NCBI GenBank assembly: GCA_015065085.1
Contig: SVQW01000004.1
Span: 1-64,000, forward strand
Length of the DNA: 64,000 nt
Reading direction: 5' to 3'
Source of the DNA: Oscillospiraceae bacterium
Lineage (GTDB): Bacteria; Bacillota; Clostridia; Oscillospirales; SIG627
Shown: piece after piece, positions 41,675 to 46,342 of the stretch
Layout: each line of letters opens with the position of its first letter
Position numbering within the stretch: the stretch's first letter is position 1
Program-made: the position numbers and the translations under genes
Notes under the pieces: model-generated
The model's input: only the letters and a program-made list of their open reading frames with translations
What the model was told of the DNA's origin: nothing
Databases searched by the model: none

Positions 41675-41706
41675 TATGCCGAGTGTTCTCAGGAACACCC
41701 GGCATA
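41675..41706. terminator. Bidirectional terminator between HAD and FGGY genes
   Basis: TATGCCGAGTGTTC / GAACACCCGGCATA with a short loop and one mismatch; convergent genes on both sides. Confidence 0.7.
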
Positions 41707-43245
41707 TGATTTGTATAGTTCAAAAAAACTGTTAAAACCTTCGACTGATTTGGGGTCGGGCAACAAAACTGTTTTTTCAATGTTTCCAAAAACTTTTGCA
41801 TCAAGCCAATCTCCAAGTGAGTGATTTTCACTTTTTATCATATAGGCAGCGAGCAAAGCCATACCCCAGGCACCGCCTTCTCCCGATGTTCCAGAAACAG
41901 AGACAGCGGTATTGAGTGCGTTGGCAAGAATTTGCTGAGCTACTCCTTTAACTTTAAAGAGTCCGCCATGAGCATTGAAGCAATCTGCAGAAATATTTTC
42001 ATTTTCAACAAGTATATCCATACCTATTTTTAACACTGCAACCGTAGCATATAGCTGTGAACGGAAGAAGTTTGCCAAATTCATTTTGCTCTGAGGCATA
42101 CGTAAATACATGGGAAATCCGTTTTTTATGCCGGCAACAGGTTCACTTGCAAGGAAATTGTATGATATTACCCCACCGCAGTCAGAATCTCCCGATAACG
42201 TATTTTCATACAGCAGTTTATAAATTTTTGATTTATCAATTTCCGCACCAATCATCAGTGCAAACTCTCCAAATATTTTCACCCATACATCAATCTCGGA
42301 ACAGCCGTTGTTGCTATGCACCATTGCAACGGGAAACGCATCGGGCGTTGTTACAACATCAATTTTCTCGTACTTGCCTTTTAGCTGTTTTTCCAATACA
42401 AGCATTGAAAATACAGATGTCCCGGCGGAAATATTACCGGTTTTGGGTTTTACACTGTTGGTTGCAACCATACCCGTTCCGGCATCGCCTTCGGGAGGGC
42501 AAACCGGTATACCGGCTGATAATTTTCCGGAAATATCGAGGAAATCTGCTCCGGATTGTATCAGCATTGCGCCTGCTTCGCCACAAACCTTCACTTTGGG
42601 AAGAATATCGCGTATATTCCATGTCAAATCGTACTTGCTTATTAAACGTTCAAATTTATCAAGCATTTCCGGATTATACTCATTGCCGAGAATCGGAAAC
42701 ATTCCCGAAGCTTCGCAAACGCCTACTTCCCATCTGCCGGTCAGCAAATAGTGAATATATCCCGACAACGTGGTAATATGTGCAATTCGATTTACATGCT
42801 CTTCTCCATTTAAAATTGCCTGATACAGATGAGCGATACTCCAACGCTGCGGAATATTAAAATTGAATAAATCTGTAAGTTCTGACGCCGCCTTTTCTGT
42901 TGTTGTATTTCTCCATGTTCTGAAAGGAACAAGAAGCTTATCTTCATCATCAAACGCAAGATAACCATGCATCATTCCCGAAATACCTATACCACCCATC
43001 TTTGTCAGGTTGATATTATATTTCTCCAGAACATCTTTGCACAAAGAAGCATAGCTCTCTTTTGTCCCTTTAAAAATTTCATCTATGGAATACGTCCAAT
43101 AACCGTTTTCAAACTTGTTTTCCCACTCATAACAGCCACTGGCTATCGGCATATAACTGTCATCAATCAAACAGGATTTTATTCTGGTCGATCCAAGCTC
43201 TATACCAAGAAATGTATATCCTTGTGCTATTTTTTCCTTGATCAT
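41689..43245 (-). CDS. FGGY-family carbohydrate kinase
   Basis: The 518-residue protein has the actin-like two-domain fold of the FGGY kinases: the N-terminal phosphate loop GIELGSTRIKS, the sugar-binding block GIGISGMMHGYLAF, and the ATP-binding GNISAGTSVFSML and NAHGGLFKV. It would phosphorylate a pentose, ketose or polyol such as xylulose, ribulose or fructose. The GH172 gene precedes it by 17 nt, so it likely phosphorylates the sugar that GH172 releases. Its stop overlaps the terminator stem. Sugar specificity is not decided. Confidence 0.85.
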   Translation of the reverse strand: MIKEKIAQGYTFLGIELGSTRIKSCLIDDSYMPIASGCYEWENKFENGYWTYSIDEIFKGTKESYASLCKDVLEKYNINLTKMGGIGISGMMHGYLAFDDEDKLLVPFRTWRNTTTEKAASELTDLFNFNIPQRWSIAHLYQAILNGEEHVNRIAHITTLSGYIHYLLTGRWEVGVCEASGMFPILGNEYNPEMLDKFERLISKYDLTWNIRDILPKVKVCGEAGAMLIQSGADFLDISGKLSAGIPVCPPEGDAGTGMVATNSVKPKTGNISAGTSVFSMLVLEKQLKGKYEKIDVVTTPDAFPVAMVHSNNGCSEIDVWVKIFGEFALMIGAEIDKSKIYKLLYENTLSGDSDCGGVISYNFLASEPVAGIKNGFPMYLRMPQSKMNLANFFRSQLYATVAVLKIGMDILVENENISADCFNAHGGLFKVKGVAQQILANALNTAVSVSGTSGEGGAWGMALLAAYMIKSENHSLGDWLDAKVFGNIEKTVLLPDPKSVEGFNSFFELYKSYAGCS

Positions 43246-43262
43246 ATATTACAATCCTTTAA

Positions 43263-44315
43263 TTATATAATTTCAAGTTCATCTGTCGAAGGAAATTTGG
43301 GGAAATTTTTACATATGCTATCCTGATACCAGAATGCCACAGATGATATATCATCCTGCAAAGGAAGGAAGCGCGGTCCGTTTCTCCAACCCAATGCCTG
43401 TATGGTTACTTTTATATCTTTTTTGAAGTAGATAGGGTCAGTTATATGCCATCTGTAAAGAGAAAATCTCTGCTGAGAGCTGTAAAGGCCGTCAGGTCTT
43501 ATTATTTTTGAAAGACCGGAGTAAGGCGTACAGAATTCTTGATATTTTCCGCCGATATCGAAATTCCACGACCCACAGAAATAATCCTCAGTGCCGGTTC
43601 CGCAGATAGTCGGGTATTCTTTGTCGCCGTCAAGGTAGAATTTTATTTCACCTTCACCCCACCAACCGGTATTGTTTACGCCCCAGAACATATATGTTCC
43701 TACGTAATGGCCGTTTCCTTCAACATTGTCAAGAATTGTATAACATTCTTTATACGGCAAAGGATTTGTTCTTCTGAATTGAGCATGAAAATAGCCGTGT
43801 CCTTCGGGAATATTTCCTACAAGATAATCAATCTGGTAATAAGCCACAGCATCTTCAAAATTAAGATTTTCAAGTGTTATTCTGCATTTTTTGTAAAAAG
43901 GCATATCCCAGTAACAATTAAAAGCTCTTTTGGGATTTACACATACCGGCAAGGATGTAAGCTGTGCATAATTCTGGTATTCTGCAGAAGCAAAAAAATC
44001 CCCAAGCGGTACTTCCACAGATGGAGTGTCGCTTCCGTCCCAGTACATTCTGATAATAAGCATTCTGTTTTTTGGGCAACTGTCGGTAATCCATATGTGC
44101 TTTATAATGCCGGAGCCATCTATATTTGCCAACTCAACTGTTTTACCTGCGGGTACTACAACAGAGGGAGATATTTTCCATCCTTTCCCCAGATCTTTTG
44201 CATAACGCTCTGCTGTTCCATGTTCTGCCATTCCGCCTTTGCCTTTTTCACCGGTAAAGTTTTCGGCAGAAATTGACCTTGTTTCAAAGTTTTGCATTTT
44301 TGATAAACACATCAT
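43263..44315 (-). CDS. GH172 (DUF2961) glycoside hydrolase
   Basis: About 350 residues in a double jelly-roll pattern typical of DUF2961/GH172. Known members cleave difructose dianhydride, alpha-D-fructofuranosides or alpha-D-arabinofuranosides and form trimers. The core motif GTGTEDYFCGSW carries the catalytic Glu, and WGVNNTGWWGEGEIKFYLDGD is the other family block, split as WGVNNTGWWGEG and EIKFYLDGD. No signal peptide: it acts in the cytoplasm. AAGGAGG nine nt before 44315 sets the start; the upstream extension is rejected. It forms an operon with the FGGY kinase and is divergent from an AraC-type regulator that probably controls both. Confidence 0.85.
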   Translation of the reverse strand: MMCLSKMQNFETRSISAENFTGEKGKGGMAEHGTAERYAKDLGKGWKISPSVVVPAGKTVELANIDGSGIIKHIWITDSCPKNRMLIIRMYWDGSDTPSVEVPLGDFFASAEYQNYAQLTSLPVCVNPKRAFNCYWDMPFYKKCRITLENLNFEDAVAYYQIDYLVGNIPEGHGYFHAQFRRTNPLPYKECYTILDNVEGNGHYVGTYMFWGVNNTGWWGEGEIKFYLDGDKEYPTICGTGTEDYFCGSWNFDIGGKYQEFCTPYSGLSKIIRPDGLYSSQQRFSLYRWHITDPIYFKKDIKVTIQALGWRNGPRFLPLQDDISSVAFWYQDSICKNFPKFPSTDELEII

Positions 44316-44345
44316 TTTAGTATTCCTCCTTGAAATTATACTGTG

Positions 44346-44420
44346 ATTATAGTATAATATAGCATAGTCACCAATAAAATTAAATAGCATTTCGTGTCAA
44401 TAAATTTATCATTTATTGAC
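44346..44420. promoter_or_regulatory. Divergent control region of the GH172 operon and AraC gene, with palindrome
   Basis: For the GH172 operon, minus-strand TTGGTG (44374-44369) and TATAAT (44351-44346) are 17 bp apart. Between this and the AraC gene lies a perfect 9-bp inverted repeat GTCAATAAA (44396-44404) / TTTATTGAC (44112 offset: 44412-44420) with a 7-bp spacer, a good candidate operator 28 bp before the AraC start. Confidence 0.6.
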
Positions 44421-44448
44421 GTGATGTTGTTCAGAAGGAGTCAAATAT

Positions 44449-45320
44449 ATGAATAAAAACGAATTTTCTCCATATATAAGAGTTGCGGTGCACTCTACCA
44501 TTATTGCCCCATTTACTATAAACGACAGGGTGATATTTGATTACGAGATAATTCTGGTAGCTGACGGTAAGTGTAAAATTACCGTAGATAATATAGAATA
44601 TCTGTGCAAAAAAATGATGTTGTATTTTTGAGACCCGGTATTCGCCATAAATTTGAGTGTGTTGATAACATTGATTTCGTGCAGCCTCATATTCATTTTG
44701 ACGTATCATACAGTGATATGAGTGACAAAAGATTCGTATCCTTTAAGTCAAAAGAAAAAATGTCAGATGAAGAACTTTTGCTGATTCAAAAAGATGTTTT
44801 CGAAGATATACCTATTCCAAATGTATTTACGCCGTTTGACCACAGTAATTTTCAAAATATTTTTTTTGAAATCATTGAGATTTTTGAAAAGAAGGATTAC
44901 AATTATGAGTTATTATACAAAGCCAAAATGCTGGAGCTTCTTAACTGCATTTTGGCACAGTTTGACCACAATTCAACAAACAAATATAACACAACCGACA
45001 ATCCTGTTGTAATGGTTAAAAACTATATAGACAGCAACTACGCATCTGTTATAACATTAAATTCTCTTTCAAAGCAGTTTTATATTAATAAATACACTTT
45101 GCTGAGGGGGTTTAAGTCTAAGTACGGAAAAAGCATTATTTCATATTATCATGACAAGAGAATTGAATATATTAAAAAAACTTTAAAGACAACCAAGGTT
45201 ACGATATCCGCTTTATCCGAGCATCTGAATTTTTCAAGCATTTATTCCTTTAGCAGGTTTTTTAAAAAATACACAGGATGTTCTCCGACAGATTGGCGGA
45301 ATAATCATTTTGTTAATTGA
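44449..45320 (+). pseudogene. AraC-family regulator split by a frameshift at an A7 tract
   Basis: The gene is read from ATG 44449 (ribosome site GAAGGAG) through a cupin-like N-terminal domain, but stops at 44629-44631. The reading frame that continues with NDVVFLRPGIRHKF and ends with a full AraC double helix-turn-helix (about YINKYTLLRGFKSKYG to FSRFFKKYTGCSPTDW) is shifted by -1. The join lies in AAAAAAA at 44608-44614: one extra A would give an unbroken 290-residue regulator with a normal DVVFLRPG cupin strand. It may be a real mutation, a phase-variable or slippage site, or a sequencing error. It is divergent from the GH172-FGGY operon, its probable target. Confidence 0.85.
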
Positions 45321-45335
45321 AGTATATCCTCGCCC

Positions 45336-45627
45336 GCTATAGCCGAAAAGATGTGTATCATTTCCGGCGATTTTAAGCTATAGCCGAAAAGAGCCGAACT
45401 CATGTCGGTTTCGAGGACGATTTTCGCCCCTTTCGGCGTTATTTTTTCTTGTAATATGTATATATAACTGCGCAAAAATGCCTTGAAAGAAACAAAAATC
45501 GTTCCTTGAAACTTCCCTCGAACCGAGGAAAGATAATTTTCGAGCAGAAATGCATTCTGCGCACAAAGATGTATTTATGCCGGAAAGAAATTTTCTCGGC
45601 GGCATTAGTTCGACTCTTTTCGGCTAT
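45336..45627. repeat. MITE-like element with terminal inverted repeats
   Basis: Positions 45380-45400 and 45607-45627 form a 21-bp inverted repeat with one mismatch (ATAGCCGAAAAGAG with CGAACT), and similarity continues a few bases inward. TA dinucleotides flank both ends, as after mariner-like insertion. A further direct copy of CTATAGCCGAAAAGA lies at 45337-45351. The 206-bp interior has no convincing gene; a 75-codon minus-strand frame is probably chance. The element sits right behind the AraC gene. Confidence 0.65.
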
Positions 45628-45646
45628 TACAATCCTTATACGACAA

Positions 45647-45678
45647 AAACCCGAGACAAAAAATTTTGTCTCGGGTTT
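45647..45678. terminator. Bidirectional terminator after the ThyX-like gene
   Basis: Perfect 15-bp stem AAACCCGAGACAAAA / TTTTGTCTCGGGTTT. Confidence 0.8.
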
Positions 45679-45715
45679 AAAACTATTTTCAAAAACGGTG
45701 TTATTATTTTTTCGT

Positions 45716-46342
45716 TTACTGTTCTTTAATTTTTATGAGCAGGTCGGCATAAGGGAGTTTATCGATGTAGTCACAGAAAACGTGCCATTCGTCCAGCTTG
45801 TGCAAGCGGCGGGAATAATAAATATTTATGAGATTTTCATAGTTAAGCGTACAGGTACGCATCTGGTTATAGCTGGAGGGAAGAAGCTGAATAAGGTCGT
45901 ACCAATCCGCCTTGTCCTTGGTTTCCAAGTAACGTTGACGTACCTGTTCCATTTCTCCTACATAATTCTCAAATATTTTAAGAGAGTTTTCAGTCAGCTT
46001 ATCACATGAAAAATCGCTCAGTTCAAAGGGCTTTGAATGAATTTTATGCATTGTGCTTGTGGAATTGGCAACAGTGGCAACCTTATATGTATCATACTCT
46101 TTCCACCAGTAAAGAGGCGCGGTGATGTCCATGCTCACAAAAATCTGGCGCAAGAATTTTCGATGGTCGGCACTGCCCGCATGGCACAGCTTTGTTGCAA
46201 GCTTGATGTCGTTTTCACCCAGTACATAGTTACCCTTGTCGTCATAATAACTATCCATTCTGTCCCAGCTGTTCATGGGATTGCGAGCTCCGCGAATGGC
46301 GTTCTCAAGGTTCATTACAGAGATTCTTTCGATTTTTAACAT
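45716..46342 (-). CDS. ThyX-like protein lacking the RHR motif
   Basis: The 208-residue protein resembles flavin-dependent thymidylate synthase over its length: a block with DHRKFLRQIFVSMDITAP, then STSTMHKI, and a C-terminal block with LPSSYNQMRTCTLNYENL and RRLHKLDEW. The ThyX signature RHR-x7-S, which binds substrate, is here read as EYDTYKVATVANS, so the three basic residues are gone. It may bind a nucleotide or flavin without making dTMP. It is the last gene of the purA operon (25 nt after the SGNH gene), which suggests nucleotide metabolism. Assignment is by pattern only. Confidence 0.55.
   Translation of the reverse strand: MLKIERISVMNLENAIRGARNPMNSWDRMDSYYDDKGNYVLGENDIKLATKLCHAGSADHRKFLRQIFVSMDITAPLYWWKEYDTYKVATVANSTSTMHKIHSKPFELSDFSCDKLTENSLKIFENYVGEMEQVRQRYLETKDKADWYDLIQLLPSSYNQMRTCTLNYENLINIYYSRRLHKLDEWHVFCDYIDKLPYADLLIKIKEQ

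Follow-up and report, generated by a model that had tools for sequence, protein, structure and literature searches.

The gene for a regulator of the AraC family in an Oscillospiraceae bacterium is split into two overlapping reading frames, ORF1 and ORF2, at a run of seven As (A7). This raises the question whether the regulator has been lost by mutation, is still produced by way of a switch or a recoding event, or is broken only in the sequence as assembled. The gene is located in the window, by which the whole analysed stretch of 64,000 nucleotides is meant, on contig C4 of a genome of 2.45 Mb in 22 contigs that is 95% complete and has a GC content of about 44%. The probable explanation, if by no means a certain one, is considered here to be a frameshift by one base that is real and recent, is present in the DNA of the strain or population sequenced, and truncates the regulator within its cupin sensor domain.

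Features of the regulator locus and its surroundings (positions are those of the window)
Feature	Positions	Strand	Remarks
FGGY-family sugar kinase gene	41689..43245	-	downstream of the GH172 gene
GH172 family (DUF2961) gene	43263..44315	-	PF11175, E 2.9e-92; divergent from the regulator gene
Promoter-like site for the regulator	44330..44358	+	TTGAAA-17-TATAAT, 11 of 12 matches; similar block in the alignment of relatives
Inverted repeat GTCAATAAAT-ttatc-ATTTATTGAC	44396..44420		5-nt spacer; between the divergent AraC and GH172 genes
ORF1	44449..44631	+	ATG 44449 to TGA 44629-44631, 60 aa
ORF2	44604..45320	+	frame open from GTG 44604, 238 aa; remaining cupin and C-terminal HTH

The interruption of the AraC gene described in the earlier note was confirmed, and its coordinates were found to be right: ORF1 and ORF2 are split at the A7 run at 44608-44614 on the forward strand, flanked by C44607 and T44615, where the reading frame changes. 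The 0-frame codons across the run are TGC AAA AAA ATG, and the conserved frame continues with AAT GAT GTT. ORF1 codes for the 55 N-terminal residues of the regulator, comprising the first part of the cupin sensor, followed by five out-of-frame residues and the stop codon. As read from the sequence, its ATG is preceded at a distance of 8 nt by AAGGAG (44435-44440), a good Shine-Dalgarno sequence. For ORF2, the candidate starts GTG 44604 and TTG 44628 have weak Shine-Dalgarno sequences, with 2 and 4 of 6 positions matching AGGAGG. Reading the A7 run in the -1 frame results in a protein of 290 amino acids, and no further stop or frameshift was identified across its 290 codons. At the junction the protein reads YLCKK-NDVVFLRPG, compared to YFCKK-NDVVFLRPG in L009, the nearest relative found. 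The previous statement that one added A restores a regulator of 290 residues thus holds for the length, while a missing A is only one possible history of the DNA. The progenitor need not have had eight As in a row, since the ancestor may have had an AAG codon: AAG AAA AAC is present at the equivalent site in L009, L011 and L038, the remaining relatives being more divergent there, and the loss of another base from such an ancestor would yield the same seven As.

On the domain level, ORF2 was over the cut-off for both HTH_18 (PF12833, E 5.3e-16) and HTH_AraC (PF00165, E 4.6e-12), so that the C-terminal double HTH expected of the AraC family is present. The AraC_binding domain (PF02311) was matched in the read-through protein at residues 31-87 with 31.2 bits, compared to a cut-off of 21.1, and the frame break at residue 55/56 falls within this match. 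When the two halves were searched separately, AraC_binding was matched in neither ORF2 (E 0.001) nor ORF1 (E 1), which places the break inside the sensor domain. The N-terminal cupin that is also expected of the family is therefore not contained in one uninterrupted protein.

The regulator frame is uninterrupted in all ten related loci examined (L009, L011-L017, L038 and L039), and the read-through protein is colinear with these relatives. The locus L009 was the one close relative obtained from a scan of genome contigs; it originates from a Clostridia MAG from goat colon, was matched with 65% identity and codes for a regulator of 307 amino acids in a single open frame. In the family to which the window belongs, a match was found in one of 22 genomes (E 1e-25), namely the genome of the window itself, and among 394 genomes of the order, drawn from a larger group, eight matched, the own genome included. 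Two more loci were obtained from the families of two order-level relatives, in which 4 of 63 and 1 of 20 genomes match (E 1e-40). The second of the two genomes of the genus gave no match at E 1e-30, and a search of a plasmid collection returned 19 records, every one below 60% identity. The locus L010 from Tannerella was dropped as not orthologous (32% over 62 residues). A run of at least six was present at the equivalent site in none of the nine relatives for which the codons were inspected, L039 being judged from the protein only. Neither the run nor the frame transition is therefore conserved, and the combination of uninterrupted orthologues with a single disrupting lesion is the one by which a pseudogene arising from a recent frameshift is recognised.

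The age of the lesion was approached by counting unique changes in the window and in L009 against seven outgroups (window/L009: 18/21, 18/24, 18/19, 10/22, 10/21, 11/15 and 14/12). The window branch has fewer private changes than L009 in six of these comparisons and slightly more in the seventh, so that, judged from such counts, the window lineage does not clearly appear to evolve faster than L009. An old pseudogene was unsupported by these relative-rate counts. The dN/dS ratio to L009 was uninformative on recency, with synonymous sites saturated in part of the gene. Since neither a rate acceleration nor a second lesion was seen, either the lesion is recent, or the gene is still somehow expressed, or the sequence is wrong. 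The same two observations support the proposal made before that the break is recent; absent decay would be equally expected, however, from a functional recoded gene or from a sequence error.

The genes divergent from the regulator provide a context for its function. The start of the GH172 gene was placed at 44315 on account of a Shine-Dalgarno sequence at 44326-44332, the mechanical ORF start being 44390. Its DUF2961 match is the only one in the genome and contains no internal stop. The kinase was matched to the xylulokinase model with an E value of 1.7e-23 and 82.9 bits, which is under the cut-off of 380.25, and the two genes probably belong to the same operon. In the available portions of two reports, the GH172/DUF2961 family is connected with difructose dianhydride I synthase/hydrolase and with the degradation of D-arabinan (PMC8605356, PMC10115798). 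The assignment of the regulator to a sugar operon, also made in the earlier note, is borne out by these neighbours. The divergent DUF2961 partner is kept in seven of the eight relatives tested, a count that leaves out L014 and L015; it was identified as a full ORF in L009, L011, L012 and L013, and a motif search recognised it in L016, L038 and L039 (cut short) but not in L017. No FGGY kinase follows the DUF2961 gene in L009. AraC-family sugar regulators that are divergent from their operon have the same architecture of cupin and HTH and likewise a conserved divergent neighbour; the window copy differs from them in being interrupted and in having a GH172/DUF2961 enzyme as its partner.

In the intergenic region, the promoter scan gave eight sites, compared to a mean of 6.9 in shuffled sequences. 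The sequence TTATCATTTATTGAC (44406-44420), which forms the right part of the inverted repeat, is recognisable in five of five aligned relatives, whose copies differ from that of the window at 1 to 4 positions; the alignment consisted of L009, L011, L012, L013 and L038, of which L011 and L038 are near-identical, and left out the other five relatives. The inverted repeat with TTATCATTTATTGAC may represent the operator of this AraC subfamily. Since this candidate is recognisable in the relatives, the probable target site appears to be intact, with the regulator being broken. As a counterpoint to a lost regulator, the promoter- and operator-like sites look as they would in a working circuit. Searching the whole window with Rfam at gathering thresholds identified two tRNAs only.

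Downstream of the regulator, 59 bp past its stop codon, an element of about 248 bp is located at 45380-45627, with terminal inverted repeats of 28 nt that are 89% complementary. No likely gene belongs to the element itself; the ORF with a TTG start that overlaps it (45506-46009) is a mechanical call. With 45320-45660 as query, 16 places were found in the genome by BLAST, including C3:112433-112685 (99%) and C5:117758-117980 (90%), and several contig ends fall in the element, which may be a mobile element of the MITE type. An exact direct repeat of 16 nt, GCTATAGCCGAAAAGA, is present at 45336-45351 and 45377-45392, at and slightly ahead of the element's left end, and gives the impression of a duplicated end of the latter.

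The earlier note regarded an error of sequencing or assembly as equally possible as a real break, the true sequence being in frame or the consensus mixing strains. Exactly 127 bp were found to be common to the contig-end pairs C3/C5, C5/C16 and C6/C7, and 124-126 bp to four more pairs, with never more than 127 bp, in a comparison that took in 26 of the 44 ends (L067-L071, L074 and L077-L096). Shared contig ends of exactly 127 bp are the mark of a de Bruijn short-read assembly with k=127, and short reads seldom miscount runs of seven or eight As. This suggests that the assembly is of the k=127 short-read type, which argues against an artefact, and the signature helps to judge any suspected homopolymer error in this genome. 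Frameshifts were surveyed in 464 kb, consisting of the window and 20 stretches of 20 kb (L018-L037) and representing 19% of the genome. The run-centred scan gave 50 raw hits, from which eight were dropped as neighbouring runs with the same junctions, leaving 42 sites that were inspected. Judged by eye, which limits the survey, the AraC site is the only convincing frameshift among these 42 frame transitions; the others were explained by adjoining or overlapping genes, each provided with a start and a Shine-Dalgarno sequence, or by weak shadow or non-coding frames. The sensitivity of the scan for simulated one-base losses was 175 of 217 for runs of at least six and 67 of 87 for runs of at least seven. 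It replaced a survey based on composition, which was too insensitive and missed the AraC junction itself; AraC paralogues with short frames (32 places) were unfit as a control, the measure barely noticing an N-terminal break.

A lone homopolymer frameshift validated by homology is the classical form of an error, and one event per 464 kb fits a low residual error rate; in the part of their report available, the GeneTack authors expect a singleton frameshift that homology confirms to reflect a sequencing error and not a genuine indel (PMC3711429). However, runs of eight are found in the assembly: the 334 sampled ORFs, which were chosen for being open, contain 201 runs of at least seven, with 154 A7, 32 T7, 14 runs of eight and none of nine. 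In the host genome (G000), the number of A/T runs falls sharply at length 8, from 192 to 15 in coding and from 69 to 9 in non-coding DNA, which suggests selection or a mutation bias against runs of at least eight. Coding DNA of six other genomes also shows a drop at length 8, less sharply in G001 (39 to 8), though this comparison is thin, with 27-86 kb each and non-coding counts too low for a judgement, with G021 showing none. Since the drop recurs in these genomes, runs are not collapsed in this assembly alone, and a systematic collapse by the assembler was considered unlikely. The drop agrees with the general avoidance of slippery runs, for which selection against A/T runs was described, in the portion of the source available, as becoming apparent in a large share of genomes once runs reach nine nucleotides (PMC1088944). 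The earlier weighting was thus too pessimistic: two independent observations, the k=127 short-read signature and the AraC site standing alone as a convincing homopolymer frameshift in the 464 kb, speak against giving an error the same weight as a real break, and an error is regarded here as quite unlikely.

For a real A7 run, a role as a switch has to be considered. It was proposed before that slippage makes the sugar operon phase-variable, with slipped-strand mispairing at the run reversibly switching the regulator and thereby the operon. The frame breaks exactly at the run with the rest of the gene undamaged, the loss of a regulator would alter a whole operon, and slippage switches occur in gut commensals, as described for the pili of Bifidobacterium breve (PMC9187656, in the part available). 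In addition, the density of runs of at least seven in ORF2 (4.2 per kb) is the highest among the 334 ORFs, which favours a proneness to slippage, while the complete gene has 3.4 per kb, which would place it around fifth. Against phase variation, A7 is a common length in the sampled ORFs, the relatives are without the run, and the two A7 and one T8 of the AraC gene are not above the number in synonymous shuffles (P 0.31, runs of at least seven). Recognised contingency runs are usually longer than A7. The proposal therefore finds little support beyond the run density of ORF2, and phase variation is judged to be very unlikely. The accessible portions of the literature on phase variation, homopolymers and AraC contained no case from a gut Firmicute in which a short A run makes a metabolic regulator phase-variable; the nearest topics there were a small-colony variant of Staphylococcus epidermidis and genes of Campylobacter, staphylococci and neisseriae, with AraC barely mentioned. 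More broadly, the A7 run might be a working genetic or transcriptional switch that provides the full AraC regulator in a fraction of cells or transcripts, as a bet-hedging on the GH172 substrate, a fructan- or arabinan-like sugar; this is held to be unlikely, and no good evidence was found for a built-in switch selected as such.

Full-length regulator could also be produced to some extent if RNA polymerase slips on the As or the ribosome shifts there by -1. For Shigella flexneri MxiE, which is likewise AraC-like and depends on a frame change within its gene for the full-length form, the available part of the report describes recoding by transcriptional slippage, which adds the extra base in about 30% of cases (PMC6237886). 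In Blochmannia and Buchnera, as far as the source could be consulted, genes are similarly found with a single indel in an A run, otherwise intact and, as shown for Blochmannia, without unusual rate acceleration, like the window gene (PMC3017870). These cases show that AraC-like genes or genes split at poly-A can be rescued, and recoding is therefore kept at a low probability. In the window itself, if the tRNA on AAA 44611-44613 slipped back by one base, it would pair again without mismatch and translation would continue in the conserved frame; the tandem slip is imperfect (C AAA AAA). The Blochmannia and Buchnera genomes differ in having many coding poly-A tracts of at least nine, with slippage rescue shown for some genes (PMC3017870), compared to A7 in a genome of the size and GC content given above. 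Seven As are also short of the nine at which selection becomes evident (PMC1088944), and runs of A9 or A10 gave little sliding product in vitro in an E. coli system, according to the part of that report available (PMC4363877). In contrast to the MxiE case, the run of the window is short and unconserved, and recoding here is hypothetical. Of the two features expected of a programmed frameshift, neither a slippery site conserved among the relatives nor a stimulatory downstream structure was found, the 86 nt after the run (44615-44700) folding no better than shuffled sequences (z = +0.24) in a test limited to pseudoknot-free folds; an upstream stimulator resembling a Shine-Dalgarno sequence was not seen by eye. 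Recoding is accordingly rated as distinctly unlikely. Still less is to be expected of an independent production of ORF2, initiated at GTG 44604 or, through stop-start coupling, at TTG 44628, that would give a short DNA-binding protein. The whole HTH domain is retained, TTG 44628 overlaps the stop codon of ORF1, and VirF21, a short C-terminal form of Shigella VirF, represses virF (PMC5101355, in the part available), but the Shine-Dalgarno sequences before both starts are weak, and a start in the middle of the cupin would result in a broken sensor fold, so that such a product is highly improbable.

The one-base frameshift favoured here belongs to a known kind of event and is nothing out of the ordinary, and a recent loss of the regulator is most likely. 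With A7 in the DNA of all cells, ribosomes starting at 44449 would stop at 44629 and release a fragment of 60 amino acids, with no full-length protein being produced. Since this fragment is without the DNA-binding domain, the divergent GH172-FGGY kinase operon would lose its dedicated regulator and would probably no longer be properly induced by its sugar. The run would raise the odds of contraction and re-expansion during replication compared to other positions, so that the allele may be revertible. If the run does switch, a gut Firmicute would provide a case of metabolic phase variation that acts on a regulator through a short stretch of As; a plain frameshift has little significance and adds one more recently lost regulator.
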